This document shows positions 1 to 8,529 of a stretch of DNA of 8,586 nucleotides, piece after piece. A model generated the notes under the pieces. It had not been told where the DNA came from. It ran no database searches and was given only the letters and a program-made list of their open reading frames with translations. This stretch comes from DASVDK01 sp036562265 [NCBI: Thermodesulfobacteriota bacterium] (GTDB lineage: Bacteria; DASVDK01). The stretch covers positions 1 to 8,586 of the forward strand of contig DATCKS010000534.1 of NCBI GenBank assembly GCA_036562265.1. The letters are read 5' to 3'. The first letter of the stretch is position 1, and each line of letters opens with the position of its first letter. The position numbers and the translations under genes are program-made.

Positions 1-449
1 GCGATGGCCCGTGCCAGGGCGACGCGCTGCTGCTGTCCGCCCGACAACTGGTTCGGGTAGCGGTCCTCGAGGCCCTGGAGCTTGAGGAGGCGGACCATCT
101 CGTCCACCCGCCGGGCGGCCTCGGCCCGCGGCGTGCGGCGCATGGCGAGGCCGTAGCCGATGTTCTCCCGGACGGTCCTGTGCGGGAAGAGGGCGTAGTC
201 CTGGAAGACCATGCCGACGCCGCGCCGGTGGGCCGGCACGCCGTCGACGACCCGCCCGCCGATGCGGATCTGCCCGTCGTAGTCGACGAACCCGGCGATC
301 GCCCTGAGCAGGCTCGTCTTGCCGCAGCCGCTCGGCCCCAGGAGCGCCACGAACTCCGACGGCTCCACGACGAGCGACACGCCCCGGACCGCCTGGACGT
401 CCCGGTACCTGACCCTGAGGTCCTCGATCTCGATCCGTACGCCGTCCAT
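1..449 (-). CDS. ABC transporter ATP-binding protein, PotA-like (3' part cut by window edge)
   Basis: This is the cytoplasmic ATPase that powers the importer encoded just upstream. Only the first 149 residues are present; PotA/CysA-type subunits usually run about 350-380, so the Walker B, H-loop and C-terminal regulatory domain lie outside the window. Visible in order are a likely A-loop Tyr15, Walker A GPSGCGKTS (38-46), the Q-loop with Gln83 in FQDYALFPH, and the ABC signature LSGGQQQR (135-142). FQDYALFPH is typical of the polyamine/iron/molybdate-class (MOI) importers. The ATG at 449 is preceded by AGAGGAG, which overlaps the TAG stop of the permease gene eight bases upstream, so the two genes are probably translationally coupled. 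As the last visible gene of a DBCA-order transporter set, its partners are the two permeases before it. Family assignment is secure; the substrate is not determinable. Confidence 0.95.
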   Translation of the reverse strand, partial: MDGVRIEIEDLRVRYRDVQAVRGVSLVVEPSEFVALLGPSGCGKTSLLRAIAGFVDYDGQIRIGGRVVDGVPAHRRGVGMVFQDYALFPHRTVRENIGYGLAMRRTPRAEAARRVDEMVRLLKLQGLEDRYPNQLSGGQQQRVALARAI

Positions 450-457
450 CGACTCCT

Positions 458-1255
458 CTAGCGCCCCGTGAACGCCTCGATCCCCACGTACCGGTCGAGG
501 ACGACCACGACCACGGAGACCCCGGCGACGAGCAGCGCGCAGAGGGCCGCCACCGTCGGGTCGTTCTCGGTCCGCACGTAGCTGTAGATCTCGACCGGCA
601 GCGTGCTCCGGTCCCAGACGAGGAACTGGCTCGCCGTGAAGTTGTCGAACGACGTGACGAAGGCGAAGATCGCCGCCGCCACCATCCCGGTGCGGATGAC
701 CGGCAGCGTCACCGTGAGGAAGGCCCGCCACGGCGGGGCCCCGAGCACCCGCGCCGCCTCCTCGAGGGAGACCTTGACGCGGGTCAGGCTCCCGACGACG
801 ACCCGCACGGCGTAGGGCAGCGTGATGACGACGTGCAGGACGAAGAGGCTCGGGAAGGAGCGGAAGACGCCGAGGGCCGCGAACGAGACGAGGAACGCCA
901 TGCCGATGACGACGCCCGGCACGATGAGCGGCGAGAGGAGCAGCGTGAGGAGCGCGTCTCGCCCCGGGAAGCGGTAGCGGACCAGGGCCAGCGCGGCCAG
1001 GGTTCCGGCCGCGACGCTTACCAGGGCCGAGAGGAGGCCGAGCGCCACGCTGAGCTCGAAGGCCCTGAGGAAGCCGTCCCGATTGAGGATGTTGGCGTAC
1101 CACCGGAGCGAGAGGCCGCGCGGCGGGAACACCTGCTCGGTGCCGGGGTTGAAGGACGCGCCGATCATCACGACGAGCGGCAGGCAGAGCACGGCCAGGA
1201 CGGCGAGCGCCACGGGCGCGGCGACCGGGTGGCGGCGCACGACCCGGTGGGCCAT
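458..1255 (-). CDS. ABC transporter permease, PotC-like (second membrane subunit)
   Basis: This is one of two integral-membrane subunits forming the translocation channel of the polyamine/opine-type importer. The 265 residues match the usual PotC length. Hydrophobic stretches near residues 10-32, 68-92, 101-124, 136-156, 190-212 and 232-253 fit six membrane helices. The cytoplasmic EAA loop that docks onto the ATPase is clear at about 165-185, beginning EEAARVLGAPPWRAF and ending in TLP. The ATG shares one base with the TGA of the preceding permease (TGATG), which points to coupled translation and supports this start. A G-rich run lies four bases before the ATG. It is the shorter permease and follows the PotB-like gene, the order found in pot-type operons. 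Substrate specificity is set by the binding protein and cannot be read from this subunit. Confidence 0.93.
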   Translation of the reverse strand: MAHRVVRRHPVAAPVALAVLAVLCLPLVVMIGASFNPGTEQVFPPRGLSLRWYANILNRDGFLRAFELSVALGLLSALVSVAAGTLAALALVRYRFPGRDALLTLLLSPLIVPGVVIGMAFLVSFAALGVFRSFPSLFVLHVVITLPYAVRVVVGSLTRVKVSLEEAARVLGAPPWRAFLTVTLPVIRTGMVAAAIFAFVTSFDNFTASQFLVWDRSTLPVEIYSYVRTENDPTVAALCALLVAGVSVVVVVLDRYVGIEAFTGR

Positions 1256-2145
1256 CAGGCCCCCCGGATCCGCGCGGCGAAGGCGCGCTGGAGCCCGTAG
1301 ACGAGCGTCGCCGTCACGACGAGGGTCACCATGGCCGACGCGGCCGCGAAGGGGTAGTCCTGCGCCCCCATGGCCTTGTCGTAGATCAGGTTGGCGATCA
1401 TCTCGAAGTAGCCCCCGCCGAGGAGGCCGGGGATCACGTAGGCCGTGAGCGTGAAGAGGAAGACGACGACCGTCCCGGCCGCGACGCCCGGCATGGCGAG
1501 CGGCACCGTGACGGTCCAGAAGCGCTCGAGCGGCCCGGCCCCGAGCGACTCGGCCGCGGCGTCGAGGTTCGCCTCGATCGCGAGCAGGCTCGAGTAGACC
1601 GGGAAGACCATGAACGGGATCGAGACCAGCACGAGGCCGATCACGACGCCGAGTTCGTTGTACATGAGCGGCAAGGGCGCCTCGATGAGCCCGAGGGCGA
1701 CGAGCGTCCGGTTCACGACCCCGTTGCGCCCGAGAATCAGCATGAGCGCGTACGTCCGGACGACGTACGCCGTGAAGAACTGGACGACGAGCACGAGGCT
1801 CGTCACGAGGCGCACCACCGGCCCCGAGCGGCTCATGTAGTAGGCGACGGCGAAGCCGAGGACCGCCACGATGGCCGTGCTCACGACCGCGGCACGGATC
1901 GAGCGCCAGAGGTAGCCGAGGTAGTAGGGGTCGCCGAGGAAGCGCGCGTAGTTCTCGAGCGTGAACCCCGAGCCGACCTGCGCCATGCCGAGGCTCGGAC
2001 GGACGCTGTAGTAGACCATGGCCGCGAGGCAGGCGAAGAAGGCGAGGACGATCGCCGCGGCGGGCGCCGCGAGGAGGGCGGCCCGCGCCATCCGGCCGCG
2101 GGGACGGCGCACCGGCGCCGTCCCCATGGCCGCTCCCGGGGCCAT
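1255..2145 (-). CDS. ABC transporter permease, PotB-like (first membrane subunit)
   Basis: This is the other membrane subunit of the importer, 296 residues from the chosen start. The first helix is near 22-46, and further hydrophobic segments lie near 84-104, 110-138, 165-185, 220-240 and 260-288. The EAA loop is at about 195-220, with AAAESLGAGPLERFW followed by VTVPLAMPG. A periplasmic stretch containing FTLENYARFL (61-70) is typical of PotB/CysT-like permeases. The ATG at 2145 overlaps the binding-protein stop by one base (TGATG), the same junction seen at two other places in this operon, so I prefer it. An in-frame ATG at 2127 (Met7) has the better Shine-Dalgarno (GGGAG, five bases before it) and is a real alternative that removes only six residues. 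The open frame extends further upstream, but there it is only the shadow of the binding-protein gene. Confidence 0.92.
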   Translation of the reverse strand: MAPGAAMGTAPVRRPRGRMARAALLAAPAAAIVLAFFACLAAMVYYSVRPSLGMAQVGSGFTLENYARFLGDPYYLGYLWRSIRAAVVSTAIVAVLGFAVAYYMSRSGPVVRLVTSLVLVVQFFTAYVVRTYALMLILGRNGVVNRTLVALGLIEAPLPLMYNELGVVIGLVLVSIPFMVFPVYSSLLAIEANLDAAAESLGAGPLERFWTVTVPLAMPGVAAGTVVVFLFTLTAYVIPGLLGGGYFEMIANLIYDKAMGAQDYPFAAASAMVTLVVTATLVYGLQRAFAARIRGA

Positions 2146-3173
2146 CAGCGAGTCTGAACCTCGCGATTCCAGCGGTCTTCCCATCGGCTGTAGTTGGCGT
2201 TCACGACGCCCCAGTCGATCTGGTAGACGTGGTCGAGGGGCGGGATCATGTCCTTGATGGTGTCGGGGGGCTTCGCGGCCGGGTTGGCCGGGATCGTCCC
2301 GGCGACCGCCACCATCTTCTCCTGCGCCGGCTTCGACAGGAGGAAGTTCACGAACTTCTGCGCGGCCGCCTCCTGGTCGGCGCCGCGGCCCTTGACGATC
2401 GAGACGGGGATGTTGGCGAGGAACTGCGGCTTGGCCGGCATCACGAACCGGTACTTCGAGCCGGGACCGAGGTGCCGGTACACGTTCGGCAGGATCCCCC
2501 ACCCGGCCACCGCGATCTCCCCCGCCTCGAGGAACTTGATCGACTCGGGGTCGGTCTTGTAGAAGAGGGCGAGGTTCGGCTTGAGCTGCTTCATCTTCTC
2601 GAAGCCGGGCTCGATGTTCTTCTCGCTCCCCCCGTTGATCAGCGCCGCCATGACGAGGAAGTTCCCCGTGTCGAGGACGAAGCTCGTGCCGACCTTCCCC
2701 TCGAGGCGCGGATCCCAGAGGTCCTCCCACTTCGTGATCTCGAACGGCACGAGGTCCTGCCGGTAGAAGATCCCCCTCGGCGAGAGCCAGATGGCGGCCG
2801 CCGTCGGCGTCACGTACTGCTTCGGGATCGCCGCGAGGTTCGGGATCTGCTCGACCTTGAGCTCCGAGAGGAGCCCCGCCTCGGCCGCCGCCTTGGCGGT
2901 CCCCTCGATCGAGGCCCAGACGTCGACCTGCGGGTTGTTGCGCTGGGCCATGAGCTTGTTGAGACCGTCCTTCGCGCCGGCCTGCACGGCGAAGGTCACC
3001 TTGATGCCGGTCTCCTTCTCGAAGTCGTCCGCCACCGGCCGGAAGATGTCGTGGTAGAGACCGCCCCAGCTGAGGAACACGATCTCCGTCGCCGCCCCCG
3101 CCGGGCGGACCGCGCCGGCGACGAGCGCGAGGCCGACGAGCCCCGCGAGCGCACCCTGGACGAGTCGTCGCAT
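2145..3173 (-). CDS. Extracellular solute-binding protein, PotD/PotF-like
   Basis: This is the secreted receptor that captures substrate outside the cytoplasmic membrane and delivers it to the permeases. The 342-residue protein starts with a Sec signal peptide: Arg2-Arg3, a hydrophobic core at about 8-22, and an AGA motif giving likely cleavage after Ala27. The mature part opens with the family-typical EIVFLSWGG (30-38). WEDLWDP at 139-145, followed by LEGKVGT, is the hallmark loop of the PotD/SBP_bac_8 group. GWG at 224-226 lies in the region where relatives place ligand-contacting aromatics. There is no lipobox cysteine, so it appears to be a free periplasmic protein rather than a lipoprotein. 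The start is backed by a GGAGAGG-type ribosome binding site about five bases before the ATG. It begins 13 bases after the amidohydrolase gene. Polyamine, opine or small peptide are all possible ligands. Confidence 0.93.
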   Translation of the reverse strand: MRRLVQGALAGLVGLALVAGAVRPAGAATEIVFLSWGGLYHDIFRPVADDFEKETGIKVTFAVQAGAKDGLNKLMAQRNNPQVDVWASIEGTAKAAAEAGLLSELKVEQIPNLAAIPKQYVTPTAAAIWLSPRGIFYRQDLVPFEITKWEDLWDPRLEGKVGTSFVLDTGNFLVMAALINGGSEKNIEPGFEKMKQLKPNLALFYKTDPESIKFLEAGEIAVAGWGILPNVYRHLGPGSKYRFVMPAKPQFLANIPVSIVKGRGADQEAAAQKFVNFLLSKPAQEKMVAVAGTIPANPAAKPPDTIKDMIPPLDHVYQIDWGVVNANYSRWEDRWNREVQTR

Positions 3174-3186
3174 AGCGTCCTCTCCT

Positions 3187-4359
3187 TCACTGCCCTGCCG
3201 ACCGCGTCCGGTCGACGTAGGTGACCCCGTCCTTCATCACGAGGACGACCCGGGCCACCGCCTCCACCCGCTCGAGCGGGTTCTCCGCGAGCGCCACCAG
3301 GTCGGCCGCGAGGCCGGGCCTGATCGCGCCCGTCCGGTCCGCGAGACCGCACGCCGCCGCGCCGGCGGCCGTCGCCGCCCGGAGCGCCTCGAGCGGCGTG
3401 TAGCCGGCCTTCACCATGAAGGCGAGTTCCATGTCGATCCGGCCGTGGTTCTCGTCCGTGCCGACCGCGACCGGCACGCCGAGCCGGCGCGCCGCGGCCA
3501 TCGTCTCGAGGTAGCGGTCGAGCGCCGCCTTCGACCGATCGCGCATGTACTCGGGAACGTCCGTCCGCGCGGCCGCCGCCTGGAAGTACCCCGACGTGAG
3601 GATCAAGGGCACCCGCCGTTCGGCCATGAGGGCCAGGACTTCCTCGTCGAGGAAGACGCCGTGCTCGATCGTGTCCGCGCCCGCCTCGACCGCCCAGCGC
3701 GCCGCGATCGGGCTGTGGGCGTGGACCCCGAGCCGCCTGCCGGCGCGGTGCGCCTCCTCGGCCGCCACCGTCATCTCGGCCTTCGTGAAGCAGGGGAGCT
3801 GCATGTCGACGCGGAGCGTCGCCGCGCTCCCTGTGGCGAACATCTTGAGGACGTCGACGCCGGCCTTCACCTCGCGGCGGACGTGCTTGCGGATCTCCTC
3901 GGGGCCGTCCACCTCGGTCCCCTCGAACCAGCTCTGCGTCCCGCCGGTCATCGTCATGCTCCGGCCGGCCACGAGGAGCCGCGGCCCGGGGAAGAGCCCC
4001 TCGGCGATCGCCCGCCGCGCGAGGAGGTCGACGTGGTTCTTCTCCCCCATGTCGCGCAGCGTCGTCACGCCCGCCTCGAGGGCCCACCTGGCGCGCGCCA
4101 CCATCTTCGCCATGACCCACTCGTTCGGCTCGGCGGTGAGCCGGTCCTTCGGCTCGCCCGCGTCGAAGCCGAGATGGTCGTGGCAGTCGACGAAGCCGGG
4201 CACGACCGTGTAGCCGCCGAGGTCGAGGACCGGCTCTCCCGGGGCCGGCGCGAGGTCCTCGCCCACGGTGGCGATGTTCGCCCCCTCGACCCGGATGGAC
4301 GCCCGGCGCTTCGGCTCCGTCGAGACGCCGTCGATGAGGAGTCCGCAGCGGATCAGCAT
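3187..4359 (-). CDS. Metal-dependent amidohydrolase, imidazolonepropionase/prolidase-like
   Basis: This is a 390-residue cytoplasmic TIM-barrel hydrolase of the amidohydrolase superfamily (imidazolonepropionase-like group), whose members hydrolyse C-N bonds in cyclic imides or cleave X-Pro and other blocked dipeptides. The metal site is intact by inspection: His60 and His62 in VDCHDH, Lys172 in LKMFATG (probable carboxylated bridging lysine), His213/His215 in GVHAH, His233 in EHG and Asp302 in GTDENHG. The N-terminal strand LLIDG and the C-terminal GLAADLVAL segment form the small beta-sandwich that flanks the barrel. The ATG at 4359 overlaps the GntR stop by one base (TGATG), with a GAGAGG ribosome binding site about eight bases before it. 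The much longer upstream open frame reads Arg/Gly-rich nonsense and is a shadow. It lies directly before the binding-protein gene, so its substrate is probably the imported compound. Of the four enzymes here, it has the most canonical active site. Confidence 0.9.
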   Translation of the reverse strand: MLIRCGLLIDGVSTEPKRRASIRVEGANIATVGEDLAPAPGEPVLDLGGYTVVPGFVDCHDHLGFDAGEPKDRLTAEPNEWVMAKMVARARWALEAGVTTLRDMGEKNHVDLLARRAIAEGLFPGPRLLVAGRSMTMTGGTQSWFEGTEVDGPEEIRKHVRREVKAGVDVLKMFATGSAATLRVDMQLPCFTKAEMTVAAEEAHRAGRRLGVHAHSPIAARWAVEAGADTIEHGVFLDEEVLALMAERRVPLILTSGYFQAAAARTDVPEYMRDRSKAALDRYLETMAAARRLGVPVAVGTDENHGRIDMELAFMVKAGYTPLEALRAATAAGAAACGLADRTGAIRPGLAADLVALAENPLERVEAVARVVLVMKDGVTYVDRTRSAGQ

Positions 4360-5036
4360 CAGCCCGTCCTCTCCCGCCTGCCGCCGGCCGGCCGGTCGGC
4401 GCCGGCGATGATCGACGCCGCCGCGTCGGTGATGTGCGCCCGCAGCAGCGTCTCGGCCCGGGCGGCGTCCCTCGCCTTGACCGCCTCGAGGATCTCCCGG
4501 TGCTCCCGGGCCGAGCGGCGCACCGTCTCCTCGTCGTAGAGGCGAGAGGCCACGAGGAAGTACTCGTGGTGGTCGCTCAGGATCTTGAGGAGCCGTGCGT
4601 TGCCGGAGGCGGCGACGAGCGTCTCGTGGAACTCCCGGTTGAGGCGCGCCCGCCGCTCGACCGCCTTGAGCGGCAGGGCGTCGAACTCCTCGCAGTTCGC
4701 CTCGAGCCTCGCGATGGCTTCCGGTCCGATCCGCTCGACCGCGCGCCGCACGGCGTACACCTCGAGCGCCTCGCGGACGCCGAGGATGTCCTCGAGTTCC
4801 CGCCGGATGTCCTTGACGGCCACGCCGCCGCCCGCGAGCGGCTCGACGAGCCCCTCGGCCTGGAGGAAGAGGATCGCCTCGCGCACCGGCGTGCGGCTCG
4901 TGCCGAGGCTTTTGGCCAGCTCCGCCTCGACGAGCTGCTGGCCGGGCGGGATGCGACCCTTGAGAATCGCCTCCCGGATCTCGCGGCAGACCTGCCGCGA
5001 CATCGGTTCCGGCCTGACGATGCGGCTCACCACCAT
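4359..5036 (-). CDS. GntR-family transcriptional regulator, FadR/FCD subfamily
   Basis: This is a DNA-binding repressor or activator of 225 residues, the usual FCD-type length. Residues 12-75 form the winged helix-turn-helix: REIREAILKG, PPGQQLVEAELAKSLG, the recognition helix TSRTPVREAI (46-55) and a wing ending near 75. Residues about 80-210 form the all-helical FCD ligand domain. Its metal-binding positions are visible as Asn133 and His137 in NREFH, His179 in REHREIL and His201 in LLRAHI; FCD proteins commonly bind a carboxylate ligand through such a metal. The start lies six bases after the M20 stop with a weak AGG. Met12 is an alternative that would keep the whole DNA-binding domain. The gene sits in mid-operon, and the palindrome over the -10 of the operon promoter is its most likely target, implying autoregulation by an operon substrate or product. 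That link is inferred. Confidence 0.93.
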   Translation of the reverse strand: MVVSRIVRPEPMSRQVCREIREAILKGRIPPGQQLVEAELAKSLGTSRTPVREAILFLQAEGLVEPLAGGGVAVKDIRRELEDILGVREALEVYAVRRAVERIGPEAIARLEANCEEFDALPLKAVERRARLNREFHETLVAASGNARLLKILSDHHEYFLVASRLYDEETVRRSAREHREILEAVKARDAARAETLLRAHITDAAASIIAGADRPAGGRRERTG

Positions 5037-5042
5037 GGCGAC

Positions 5043-6281
5043 CTACCGCGCCAGGGCGCCCGGGGCCGTCATCCGGGCCATCGTGAGGGCGTACACCTTC
5101 GCCGCGGTCACGAGGTCCGCGATGTCCACCCGTTCGTCGGGCATCGTGTTGTACTTGCCTCCCGGGCCGTAGACGAGGCCCTGCATGCCGGCCCGCGCGA
5201 GGTGCGCCGCGTCCGAGCCGTAGAACTTGTAGGGCGCCACCGCCCCGATCTTCGGTCTCGTCCCCGTGACCTCGCGGTGGGCCGCCACGAGCGTCCGGAC
5301 GACCGGGGCCTGCGGGTCGACCTCGAAGGGGGGCATGTAGACCCGCTCGTCGTCGACCAGCTCCACCTCGGCGCGGAAGTCCCGGTCCTCGCGGGCGAGG
5401 TCGCGAAGCATCCGCCTGAGGTCGGCCATCGCCCCCTCGAGCGTCTGGCCCGGGGCGATCCGCCCCGCCGCCTTGATCGTGCAGACGTCGGCGAGCTGCG
5501 CCGCCCGCCACTCGTGGTACTCGCGCGACACGCCCGCCCGCATGACGCCGACGTTGATCCTGTTCATCCCCCGATCGCGCGCCGTCTTCGCGCCGCTGAA
5601 GGTCATCCGCTTGAGGCGCGCGAGGACCTTCAGCATCTTCTCGAGCGCGTCCACCCCCTCCTCGCGCTTCGAGAGGTGCCGCGTCTTGCCGAAGGTGTGG
5701 ATGCGGAAGACGAAGCTCGCCGCGTGACAGGTGACGGCCGAGAGGTCGGTCGGCTCGCCGACGACGAACGTGTCGGCCCGGACGCCGCTCTCGATGAGCT
5801 TCAGCGTCCCGATGCCGCCCTGCAGCTCGCCGACGACGTAGGCGAGGATCAGGTCCCCGGCGGGCACGAAGCCCGAGGCCTTGAGCGCCTCGACCGCGTG
5901 GAAGGCGGCCGCGTTGGCCGCCTTCATGTTCGAGACGCCGATGCCGTAGACGAAGCGGCGGTCCACCACCCCGCCGAGCGGGTCCTTCGTCCACCCCATG
6001 CCGGCCGGGTTCGTGTCCATGTGGCCGTTGAACATGAAGGACGGGCCGCCCCCGGTCCCCCGCCAGACGCCGATCGCGTTGAAGCGATTCGGGCGGACCT
6101 CCTGGAGCGTCACCTCGAGGCCGAGGCCGCGCATCCGCTCGGCCATGAACCGGGCGATGTCGCGCTCGTCGCCGCTGTAGCTCTTGATGCGGGCCGTCTC
6201 CGAGAGGAACGACACGACGCGCCCGCGATCGATGGCGGCCAGCACGCCGGCCGGCCGCTCCTGCCTGGCCACCGCGCTCAT
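5043..6281 (-). CDS. M20-family metallopeptidase/deacylase homologue with altered metal site
   Basis: This 412-residue protein belongs to the M20 (ArgE/DapE/carboxypeptidase G2) fold, which normally cleaves amide bonds with two zinc ions. Retained landmarks are GHMDTNP (His87 as ligand, Asp89), the dPlGGVVD stretch at 100-107, Glu152 at the general-base position, GEPTDL with ligand Glu176, His202 in the dimerisation domain, and GPGG plus PDERVDI near the C-terminus. Several key positions are changed. The bridging Asp is Asn118 (GVSNMKA), the second Glu of the usual DEE motif is Leu153 (VGELQGG), and the C-terminal His ligand is Thr379 (YNTMPDE). I checked all three codons in the DNA. These are the ligands of one zinc, so the protein may be mono-zinc, use other ligands, or act as a non-catalytic binding protein. 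The ATG overlaps the upstream stop by four bases (ATGA) with no clear ribosome binding site, indicating coupling. Fold assignment is sure; activity is open. Confidence 0.9.
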   Translation of the reverse strand: MSAVARQERPAGVLAAIDRGRVVSFLSETARIKSYSGDERDIARFMAERMRGLGLEVTLQEVRPNRFNAIGVWRGTGGGPSFMFNGHMDTNPAGMGWTKDPLGGVVDRRFVYGIGVSNMKAANAAAFHAVEALKASGFVPAGDLILAYVVGELQGGIGTLKLIESGVRADTFVVGEPTDLSAVTCHAASFVFRIHTFGKTRHLSKREEGVDALEKMLKVLARLKRMTFSGAKTARDRGMNRINVGVMRAGVSREYHEWRAAQLADVCTIKAAGRIAPGQTLEGAMADLRRMLRDLAREDRDFRAEVELVDDERVYMPPFEVDPQAPVVRTLVAAHREVTGTRPKIGAVAPYKFYGSDAAHLARAGMQGLVYGPGGKYNTMPDERVDIADLVTAAKVYALTMARMTAPGALAR

Positions 6282-7477
6282 GCGTGCATCTGGACGGGCT
6301 CGAGCTTCGGCCCGTACTTCTGCTTGGAGTGGAACGGCGCCCCGAGGATCGCCTGCGCGAGCATCTGCAGGAGCCGGTCCTCGCGGAAGTGGAGCGTGAA
6401 CGTCCGGACGTCCCGGAAGGCGAGCTCGAGCGGCGCCGGGAAGGTGCGGTAGGTGGCCCGCGCGCCGCAGATGTCGAAGGCGCGCGAGGTCACCGTGAGC
6501 GCCGTCTGCTTCGTCTGGTGGAGCGCCCGCATCGAGGCCAGCTCCGCCTCGTCGACTCGTCCCTGCTCCCAGAGCCACGCCGCGTAGTGGAGGAGCGCCC
6601 GCGAGGAGGCCAGGAGCGTATCGGCCTCGGCGAGCTGGCACTGGACCACCGGGTTCGCCTTGAGGTCCTCGCGCACCCGGACGAAGTCGAGGACCCGGTC
6701 GTGGACCCCCTGGGCCGTGCCGAGATGGTTGGCCGCGAAGGCGAGCGTGAAGGTGCGCGCGTCCTTCTGCACCCAGTCGCCCGGCTGGCCGATCACCTGC
6801 TCCTGCTCGACCGGTACGGCGTCGAGGTGCAGACTCCAGCTCACCGTGGGACGCATGCCGAGCGTGTCCCAGTCGTTCTCGAGGCGGACGCCCGGCGCGC
6901 CCTTCGGGACCACGACCATGACGAGGCCGTCGGCCATGCGCCGCGTCCCTTCCACGAGCGCCCAGATCACGTAGTAGTCGGCCGCGCCCGCGAGCGACGC
7001 GAAGCCCTTGTAGCCCGAGAGCGTGTACCCGCCACCGGAGGGCCTGAGGACCGCGTCGAACCCCTCCGGCCCCTTCTGCCGCACGGAGGCCTCGCTGCCG
7101 CAGGAGGCGAAGAGGGCGCCCTTCTTCACGACCTCCGGGAGGTAGCGCGCCTTCTGCGCCGGCGACCCCATGCCGGCGATCATGCCGACCGCGTGCGAGT
7201 GCACCTGGAGGAGTTGAGCCGTCGAGCTGCAGTGCCGGGCGATCTCCTCGATGACCAGGTAGTAGGCGAGGTAGCGCCCCGGCTGCCAGTACCCGAGCCC
7301 GCCGTACTCCTTCGGGACCGTCAGGGCGAGCAGCCCCGCCCGTGCGAGGTCGTCGAAGTTCTCCCGCGGGAAGGCGGCGGCCGCGTCGTAGGCCCGCGCG
7401 CGCGCCGGGAACTCCCGGCTCGCCTCCCGGGCCCGTGCGACCAGCTCCGCCTGCTCGGGCGTCAGCGAGAAGTCCAT
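6278..7477 (-). CDS. Acyl-CoA-dehydrogenase-fold flavoprotein, possibly a DszC-like monooxygenase
   Basis: This 399-residue protein has the three-part acyl-CoA dehydrogenase fold. The N-terminal helical domain starts MDFSLTPEQ and includes LTVPKEYGGLG (52-62); the middle beta domain carries SGYKGFASLAGAADYYV (154-170); the C-terminal helical domain includes NHLGTAQGV and FDICGARAT (334-342). It should bind FAD or FMN. Ordinary members have a catalytic Glu either in a YEGT-like motif near the C-terminus or before a conserved Arg in the third domain. Here the first position reads LHFRED with Phe364, and the second is Ala240 before Arg241. The TFTLH stretch after RDVR resembles the THTLHDP region of DszC-type monooxygenases of the same fold, so an N-, S- or C-oxygenase role is possible. 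This is an inference. It is the first gene of the operon, starting at an ATG with GGAGGG five bases before it and about 45 bases after the predicted transcription start. Confidence 0.88.
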   Translation of the reverse strand: MDFSLTPEQAELVARAREASREFPARARAYDAAAAFPRENFDDLARAGLLALTVPKEYGGLGYWQPGRYLAYYLVIEEIARHCSSTAQLLQVHSHAVGMIAGMGSPAQKARYLPEVVKKGALFASCGSEASVRQKGPEGFDAVLRPSGGGYTLSGYKGFASLAGAADYYVIWALVEGTRRMADGLVMVVVPKGAPGVRLENDWDTLGMRPTVSWSLHLDAVPVEQEQVIGQPGDWVQKDARTFTLAFAANHLGTAQGVHDRVLDFVRVREDLKANPVVQCQLAEADTLLASSRALLHYAAWLWEQGRVDEAELASMRALHQTKQTALTVTSRAFDICGARATYRTFPAPLELAFRDVRTFTLHFREDRLLQMLAQAILGAPFHSKQKYGPKLEPVQMHA

Positions 7478-7671: not shown

Positions 7672-8529
7672 TCAGCGCCGGCGGCGTGCGGGAGAGCGTC
7701 CCGCCCGGCGGCGGCGGCGCTGCTCGGCCCAGTCGCGGCGCACCACCTCCGCGATCCAGTCGGTGATGAGCCCGTAGATCTTCTCGCCCGTCTCGGCGGT
7801 CGCGAGCGCAGGCTCGCCGACGATGCCGCCCTTGAAGCCGGCGAAGCGTTCGGCGGGGAGCCGGTAGCGGCCGATGCCGCCGCCCAGGTAGGGCAGCCGG
7901 TCCTCGTCGATGGCCGGCTCCGGCGCGGGCCGCATGTGGTAGCTGCGAGCGCGGTCCATGCGGACCAGGTGAGGGGCCGTCGCCAGCATCCGCGCCGTCT
8001 CCCCCTCCCCGCCGTGGCCCTGCGGCCGCGGCGACCGCAGGACCCCCTTGTATCGGGATCGGATGCCGATCAGCCAGTTGAGCGTGACGACGTTGGCCTC
8101 GGTCCGCTCGGTCAGGTCCTTGGCGACGATCTGCAGGACCGGGTCGGTCTCGGCGTTGCAGAGCAAGAGGTAGAGCTGGCGAAAGCCGTGTCCGATGAGC
8201 TGCGCGCAGACCTCCTCGAAAAGCGCGATGAGGGTCGCATGGCTCAGGCTGATCGTCCCCGGGAAGTCGCGCGGCGACTCGCTCAGGAAGGGACGCGGCC
8301 CGTAGGGGACGGCCGGGCCGACGACCACGGGGATCCCCTCGCTCGCCAGGCGCCGCGCGACGCGCCGCGAGATGTCGATCCCCTGCATCGTGTCCGATCC
8401 GAGCGGCAGGTGCTCCCCGTGCTGCTCGGTCGCGCCGGCCGAGACGAGGATCGGAGCCCCGGCCCGCACGGCCGCCTCCACCTCGGGCCAGGTCATCTCC
8501 TCGAACGTCGGGATACGATCGGTCGCCAT
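7672..8529 (-). CDS. Creatininase-family amidohydrolase homologue
   Basis: The creatininase family comprises metal-dependent cytoplasmic hydrolases that open or cleave amide bonds in small nitrogen compounds such as creatinine and formamides. This 285-residue protein has the family's N-terminal signature ATEQHGEHLPLGSD, giving ligands Glu35, His37 and Asp46, and HGGEGETA with His172 and Glu177 at the spacing of the catalytic His178/Glu183 pair of Pseudomonas creatininase. The central NGHxxN motif is replaced by CNAETD: the metal-binding His position is Asn125, while Glu127 matches creatininase Glu122. The C-terminus is unusually basic, with five consecutive Arg at 271-275 and four at 282-285. 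The ATG follows GGAGG with a six-base spacer. It starts 27 bases after the preceding gene's stop and is separated from the downstream operon by its promoter, so it may be a neighbour rather than a member. Family is likely; reaction unknown. Confidence 0.85.
   Translation of the reverse strand: MATDRIPTFEEMTWPEVEAAVRAGAPILVSAGATEQHGEHLPLGSDTMQGIDISRRVARRLASEGIPVVVGPAVPYGPRPFLSESPRDFPGTISLSHATLIALFEEVCAQLIGHGFRQLYLLLCNAETDPVLQIVAKDLTERTEANVVTLNWLIGIRSRYKGVLRSPRPQGHGGEGETARMLATAPHLVRMDRARSYHMRPAPEPAIDEDRLPYLGGGIGRYRLPAERFAGFKGGIVGEPALATAETGEKIYGLITDWIAEVVRRDWAEQRRRRRAGRSPARRRR

Follow-up and report, generated by a model that had tools for sequence, protein, structure and literature searches.

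What does a protein of the M20 peptidase family do once its metal site has lost part of the usual ligands? The question is raised by one gene in a stretch of 8,586 nucleotides from a Thermodesulfobacteriota bacterium (contig DATCKS010000534.1), denoted here as the window. The gene has an intact frame and encodes a 412-residue M20 protein, which is matched by PF01546 (M20) with 96 bits (cut-off 24.6) and by PF07687 (M20_dimer) with 30 bits (cut-off 21). The ligand set of two-zinc M20 enzymes (His, a bridging Asp, Glu, Glu, and His) is incomplete in this protein, with Asn, Leu, and Thr replacing three of the five residues.

Metal ligands of the window protein

The replaced residues are Asn118 (codon 5928-5930), Leu153 (5823-5825), and Thr379 (5145-5147, acg). 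They take the places of the Asp, Glu, and His of the GxxDMK, DEE, and HxxDE motifs in DapE and ArgE; in the alignments, GVSNMK of the window protein faces GxxDMK, GELQ faces (D/G)EE, and NTMPDE faces xHxPDE. His87 (6021-6023), Asp89 (6015-6017), Glu152 (5826-5828), Glu176 (5754-5756), and His202 (5676-5678), counted from the start codon, are kept. Codons and alignments agree in this respect with the sequence-only reading of the locus, which had put Asn, Leu, and Thr at the ligand positions of the second zinc (Zn2) and had listed the same five residues as retained.

That reading had also concluded that every ligand of one zinc is lost while the rest of the site is kept. The first half stands, as every Zn2 ligand is replaced. 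The second half needs correction, since the bridging Asp is a ligand of the first zinc (Zn1) as well, so that one of the three ligands of the retained Zn1 site is altered from Asp to Asn. According to excerpts of the respective papers, V. cholerae DapE uses His68, Asp101, and Glu164 for Zn1, with Asp101, Glu136, and a C-terminal His serving Zn2 (PMC4012986), and the Zn2 ligands of E. coli ArgE are Asp112, Glu145, and His355 (PMC11270798).

Conservation and occurrence of the window subfamily

Genome contigs were scanned with an eight-protein profile, and at least 560 relatives were confirmed at E up to 1e-3, a limit at which not all of them are of the window's kind. The scan patterns were YNTMPDE, which contains Thr379, and [LM]FNGH[LM]DT. 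The best 80 of these relatives and eight plasmid loci were fetched, giving 88 loci with roughly 47% identity or more and with record titles naming Pseudomonadota, Rokuibacteriota, Bacillota, and an Acidobacteria MAG. Asn118, Leu153, and Thr379 are all present in 88 of the 88, and His87, Asp89, Glu152, Glu176, and His202 are unchanged in the same set. Homologues that the profile picked up in whole genomes likewise carry Asn, Leu, and Thr (16/16; in L171, one base at Glu152 is unread). Ten of the 16 are also among the pattern-found loci, and five of the other six (L091, L166, L168-L171) themselves contain the pattern motif. Since the pattern includes Thr379 and the sets overlap, Thr379 is less independently tested than Asn118 and Leu153.

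The proposal that the site was adapted rather than left to decay is strongly supported by this invariant residue set and by 29 aligned rows with Asn for the bridging Asp (Asn-type rows, treated below), which lack the Zn2 Glu and His and keep the Zn1 His, the Zn1 acid, and the base Glu. Decay was rejected in view of the residue conservation in the fetched relatives. A decaying or mis-sequenced ordinary peptidase, in favor of which no point was found, is hardly conceivable given the intact frame, the tight gene order, and the recurrence of its residue set in all 88 fetched relatives, which come from several phyla.

The window subfamily is widespread but sparse. With the seed genome counted in each case, matches at the level of this subfamily (B-level) were obtained in 6 of 95 genomes from the phylum of the Rokubacterial seed, in 4 of 190 Alphaproteobacteria, and in 4 of 199 genomes of one alphaproteobacterial order. 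Among 185 Gammaproteobacteria, 199 Bacillota, and 149 genomes from the phylum of the Acidobacteria MAG, only the respective seed genome itself is positive.

The Asn-type branch and its characterized member

More distant relatives with Asn for the bridging Asp are found in the phylum of the Rokubacterial seed, in Alphaproteobacteria, and on plasmids. The 29 Asn-type rows, 13 of which are the window protein and its subfamily, all have His87, Asp89, and Glu152, and the Zn1 acid is Glu in 28 and Asp in one. The lid His is present in 21 rows, the Zn2 Glu in none, and the Zn2 His in none, the column of the latter being a gap in five rows and L104 having His residues elsewhere in that stretch. The 35 canonical rows have the bridging Asp in 35, the Zn2 Glu in 34, and the Zn2 His in 33 cases; the exceptions are L148, in which His replaces the base Glu, Met the Zn2 Glu, and Tyr the Zn2 His, and a second row with Ala in the Zn2 His column. 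Separate counts were kept for four rows of a paralogue (A, see below), two His-type rows, and L114/L115; L093, L147, L151, L152, and L160 were left out of the count, and the short L123 and L130 were retained in it.

Two maximum-likelihood trees of 60 and 70 rows were calculated with the three trait columns excluded. The window subfamily is represented by 12 of the 88 loci, with L093 as a near-copy in the 60-row tree. Rows L089-L092, L094, L099-L102, L105, L122, L124, L125, L137, L149, and L150 of the alignment were left out, the 60-row tree is further without L123, L130, and L147, and the 70-row tree is also without L093, L151, L152, and L160. A single branch holds all Asn-type rows of both trees (support 100/98 with 60 rows, 100/100 with 70 rows) and, in addition, the His-type rows L126 and L127 and the odd rows L114 and L115. 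On this branch lies 5NAA-A (PDB 5k8m), the 5-nitroanthranilate aminohydrolase of Bradyrhizobium sp. JS329, together with seven insert-bearing Asn-type relatives (100/98, 60-row tree); the tree neighbors nearest to the window protein are L009 and L010. The idea that 5NAA-A and the window subfamily lost the ligands independently was rejected, as both are on one well-supported branch in both trees with the trait columns excluded. The label of residue 118 needs three changes in each tree and L114/L115, with Asp at this position, sit on the branch, so that position 118 changed more than once and the trees are silent on a single origin of Asn.

Several relatives show other alterations. L114/L115, from the phylum of the Rokubacterial seed, combine Asp118 with His-Lys for the base and the Zn2 Glu, have no Zn2 His, and are perhaps not hydrolases; absence of the Zn2 Glu and His together with presence of the Zn1 His and Glu and of the base Glu is found in the window subfamily, and the base Glu is what L114/L115 lack. 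L124/L125, distant matches of 5NAA-A that are outside both trees and the 29-row count, have Asn118, Pro for the Zn1 His, and neither base Glu nor Zn1 Glu. They are possibly metal-free, so that some Asn-carrying relatives may bind no metal. A further altered site is seen in L147 and L148, which retain the bridging Asp, carry His-Met in place of Glu-Glu, and lack the C-terminal His; L148 is placed outside the Asn branch in the trees. Close to the window subfamily in the tree, L126:1075-2667(+) and L127:1456-2883(-) carry His in a shortened loop (YGFVHMK) at the place of Asn118. These two possibly have a different one-metal ligand set, and His at this place is expected if position 118 is still a ligand.

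5NAA-A resembles the window protein in Asn for the bridging Asp, in the retained Zn1 His, base Glu, and Zn1 Glu, and at the Zn2 positions, where it has Ile for the second Glu and a C-terminal place without His; identity is about 22-26% and the structural Z 40.1-41.2. It differs in that 14 residues are inserted behind its GE motif and Tyr stands at the place of His202, whereas the window protein has GELQGGIGT without insert and keeps His202, and the chemistry of 5NAA-A therefore need not carry over. Titles of its PDB entries (5k8m/5k8n/5k8o/5k8p) name apo, substrate-bound, Mn2+/5NSA-bound, and Zn2+/tetrahedral-intermediate-bound forms. The original paper from 2016 reportedly describes a single, labile metal. 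In excerpts of other papers, an enzyme-coordinated M2+ (Mn2+ or Zn2+) takes part in the replacement of the amino group by a hydroxyl (PMC9814641), a dioxygenase catalyzes the next step of the pathway (PMC10306065), and the enzyme is also named (PMC11903332). No dioxygenase was detected among the six window proteins scanned. Plasmid-borne 5NAA-A-like genes of Paraburkholderia graminis (L128:4893-6212) and Acinetobacter baumannii (L129:4893-6221) are flanked by genes for an LLM flavin oxidoreductase and a cysteine hydrolase on one side and a flavin reductase on the other, an arrangement that we take to resemble pyrimidine-ring (Rut) degradation.

An AlphaFold2 model of the window protein was built with 51 family sequences (pLDDT 91.0, pTM 0.90). 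Its top structural matches are 3pfo (Z 42.1), 5k8m (Z 41.2, rmsd 2.7), and 7uoi (Z 40.8), followed by 5k8p (Z 40.4) and 5vo3 (Z 40.2); carboxypeptidase G2 scores Z 35.3. By the rule of the search tool, 3pfo ties with 5k8m and 5k8m with 7uoi. As 3pfo is canonical by its motifs in the alignment, fold alone does not single out 5NAA-A. DapE, ArgE, and carboxypeptidase G2 share with the window protein the fold, the domain plan, the base Glu, the Zn1 His and Glu, and the lid His; unlike the window protein, they possess the three Zn2 ligands. One-metal offshoots of two-zinc peptidase families exist elsewhere, in that glutaminyl cyclases have arisen from the related M28 fold, a case from another family and with another reaction.

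The window protein belongs to the Asn-type branch, in which the bridging Asp has become Asn and the Glu and His of the second zinc have been given up. It is probably an active one-metal C-N hydrolase of M20 fold that serves a catabolic uptake operon. The remaining metal probably sits at the Zn1 place, held by His87, Glu176, and probably the side-chain oxygen of Asn118. Water would be activated by Glu152 as the base, and the partner subunit would contribute His202 of its lid, which would help to hold the substrate. The C-N bond of a small molecule, imported by the ABC transporter of the operon, would then be split by what is presumably a cytosolic enzyme.

For the window protein itself, a mono-metal site is the best inference, and the position of 5NAA-A on the same branch helps it. 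An alternative would be a site that still holds two metals, with His360, His186, Asn378, or Asp357, for example, in place of the lost Zn2 ligands. These four residues surfaced in a search for replacement ligands by conservation (His360 in 87 of 88 relatives, the others in 88 of 88), but His360 proved not to be specific for the branch when this was checked: the canonical row L110 has His there, and 5NAA-A and its nearest relatives do not. As the joint loss of all three canonical Zn2 ligands also argues against retention of the second site, this alternative is unlikely.

Excerpts of studies on ArgE describe no major structural difference between its one-zinc and di-zinc forms (PMC11270798) and, for the H355A variant, in which only the Zn2 His is lost, an approximately 380-fold lower kcat with Co and no detected activity with Zn (PMC4320195). 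The former result favors a one-metal site. Going by the latter, activity of an M20 site with a single metal cannot be taken for granted, and some compensation must have taken place in the branch. The loss of metal ligands as such and the GntR regulator gene adjoining the M20 gene could also fit a pseudoenzyme that binds a substrate or regulates the operon, and the base Glu is absent in the distant rows L124/L125 and L114/L115. Set against this, all 88 relatives of the window subfamily retain the base Glu152, the Zn1 His, the Zn1 Glu, and His202 of the lid, and 5NAA-A, an enzyme of known activity, is on the same branch; a pseudoenzyme is very unlikely. The mere binding function that the sequence-only reading had offered as one option finds no support in the window subfamily, given its invariant Glu152 and His202.

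Operon context and a complementary paralogue

The genes of the window are listed in Table 1. The M20 start codon overlaps the end of the flavoprotein gene by four bases, and the GntR gene begins six bases after the M20 gene. The order of flavoprotein, M20, GntR, and transporter genes is repeated in L009 and L010.

Table 1. Predicted genes of the 8,586-nucleotide window
Feature	Position	Strand	Basis
ABC ATPase, truncated by window end	3..461	-	homologues in L009, L010
ABC permease 2	458..1255	-	homologues in L009, L010
ABC permease 1, start codon approximate	1255..2136	-	homologues in L009, L010
ABC substrate-binding protein, SBP_bac_8, weakly PhnS/PotD-like	2145..3173	-	scan, synteny
Amidohydrolase, distantly like Xaa-Pro dipeptidase model (248.4 bits, cut-off 500)	3187..4359	-	scan
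GntR/FCD regulator	4359..5036	-	scan; synteny in L009, L010
Asn-type M20 hydrolase, 412 aa (predicted)	5043..6281	-	frame, Pfam, alignment
Acyl-CoA dehydrogenase-fold flavoprotein, start codon approximate	6278..7477	-	scan; adjoins M20 gene in L009, L010
Creatininase-family amidohydrolase, upstream, same strand	7672..8529	-	scan

In L009, a flavin reductase gene (L009:1331-1819(-)) adjoins the flavoprotein gene preceding the M20 gene, and for the flavoprotein, monooxygenase may therefore be a better assignment than acyl-CoA dehydrogenase.

In 76 of the 88 fetched loci, a Dpp/Opp peptide-type transporter accompanies the M20 gene, with three or more of its four genes present within 9 kb. Five loci have a Pot/Phn-type set instead and seven have neither, four of these seven being short stretches that end at the contig end. 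An M24-type gene is nearby in 55 of the 88 loci (no identity limit applied); the one in L007, a single case, shows a weak likeness to ectoine hydrolase (117.9 bits, cut-off 575). Such M24-like and creatininase-like partners are a hint at cyclic amide or amidine substrates. A gene for DdpX (D-Ala-D-Ala dipeptidase) follows the M24 gene in L006 (L006:10352-10924) and also occurs in L033, L037, and L069; the operons carrying it are from Sodalis, Pantoea, and Erwinia.

A second M20 gene (paralogue A, e.g. L007:1620-2930(+)) is located nearby in 56 of the 88 fetched loci. All 56 copies keep the Zn1 His, bridging Asp, base Glu, Zn2 Glu, lid His, and Zn2 His and have Asn-Gly, with no acid, at the Zn1 Glu position. 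By its residues, the loss in paralogue A is the reverse of that in the window protein. Paralogue A is grouped with the canonical rows in both trees, off the Asn branch. In one order of 199 genomes, with scoring confined to the best candidates per genome, A was found in three, all of them within the four genomes carrying a member of the window subfamily (B) and about 5 kb from it. B occurs without A in 20 of the 76 Dpp loci and, as far as it reaches, in the window, so that a mixed A/B dimer cannot be general. It is rather unlikely that the whole Asn-type branch forms a separate one-metal class for C-N bonds other than peptide bonds (those of aromatic amines, cyclic amides, or amidines) that is paired with paralogue A in a peptide-transporter operon, perhaps as a mixed dimer.

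A one-metal relative of the M20 enzymes was already known from 5NAA-A, and the trait of the window protein is a family trait. In the open-licence literature, no description was found of the size of the branch, the window subfamily, its operons, or the complementary paralogue. The window protein scores 186.1 bits with TIGR01910, below the cut-off of 217.6, and none of the 25 NCBIfam models listed among the 44 that match it reaches its own cut-off; the plasmid annotations listed for homologues name M20 hydrolases and, in one case, an acetylornithine deacetylase. With no listed model at cut-off and annotations of this kind, many genomes probably carry wrong assignments of metal number and reaction. 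In an excerpt of the DapE paper, the metal-coordinating residues are called strictly conserved across all M20 metallopeptidases (PMC4012986). The whole Asn-type branch consistently breaks this rule, and its one structurally known member performs an unusual aromatic chemistry. As 5NAA-A is the only member of the branch with known chemistry, the bulk of it is an unexplored group of probable one-metal enzymes. Through the recurring operon and the complementary paralogue, the transition from a two-metal to a one-metal site becomes directly testable.
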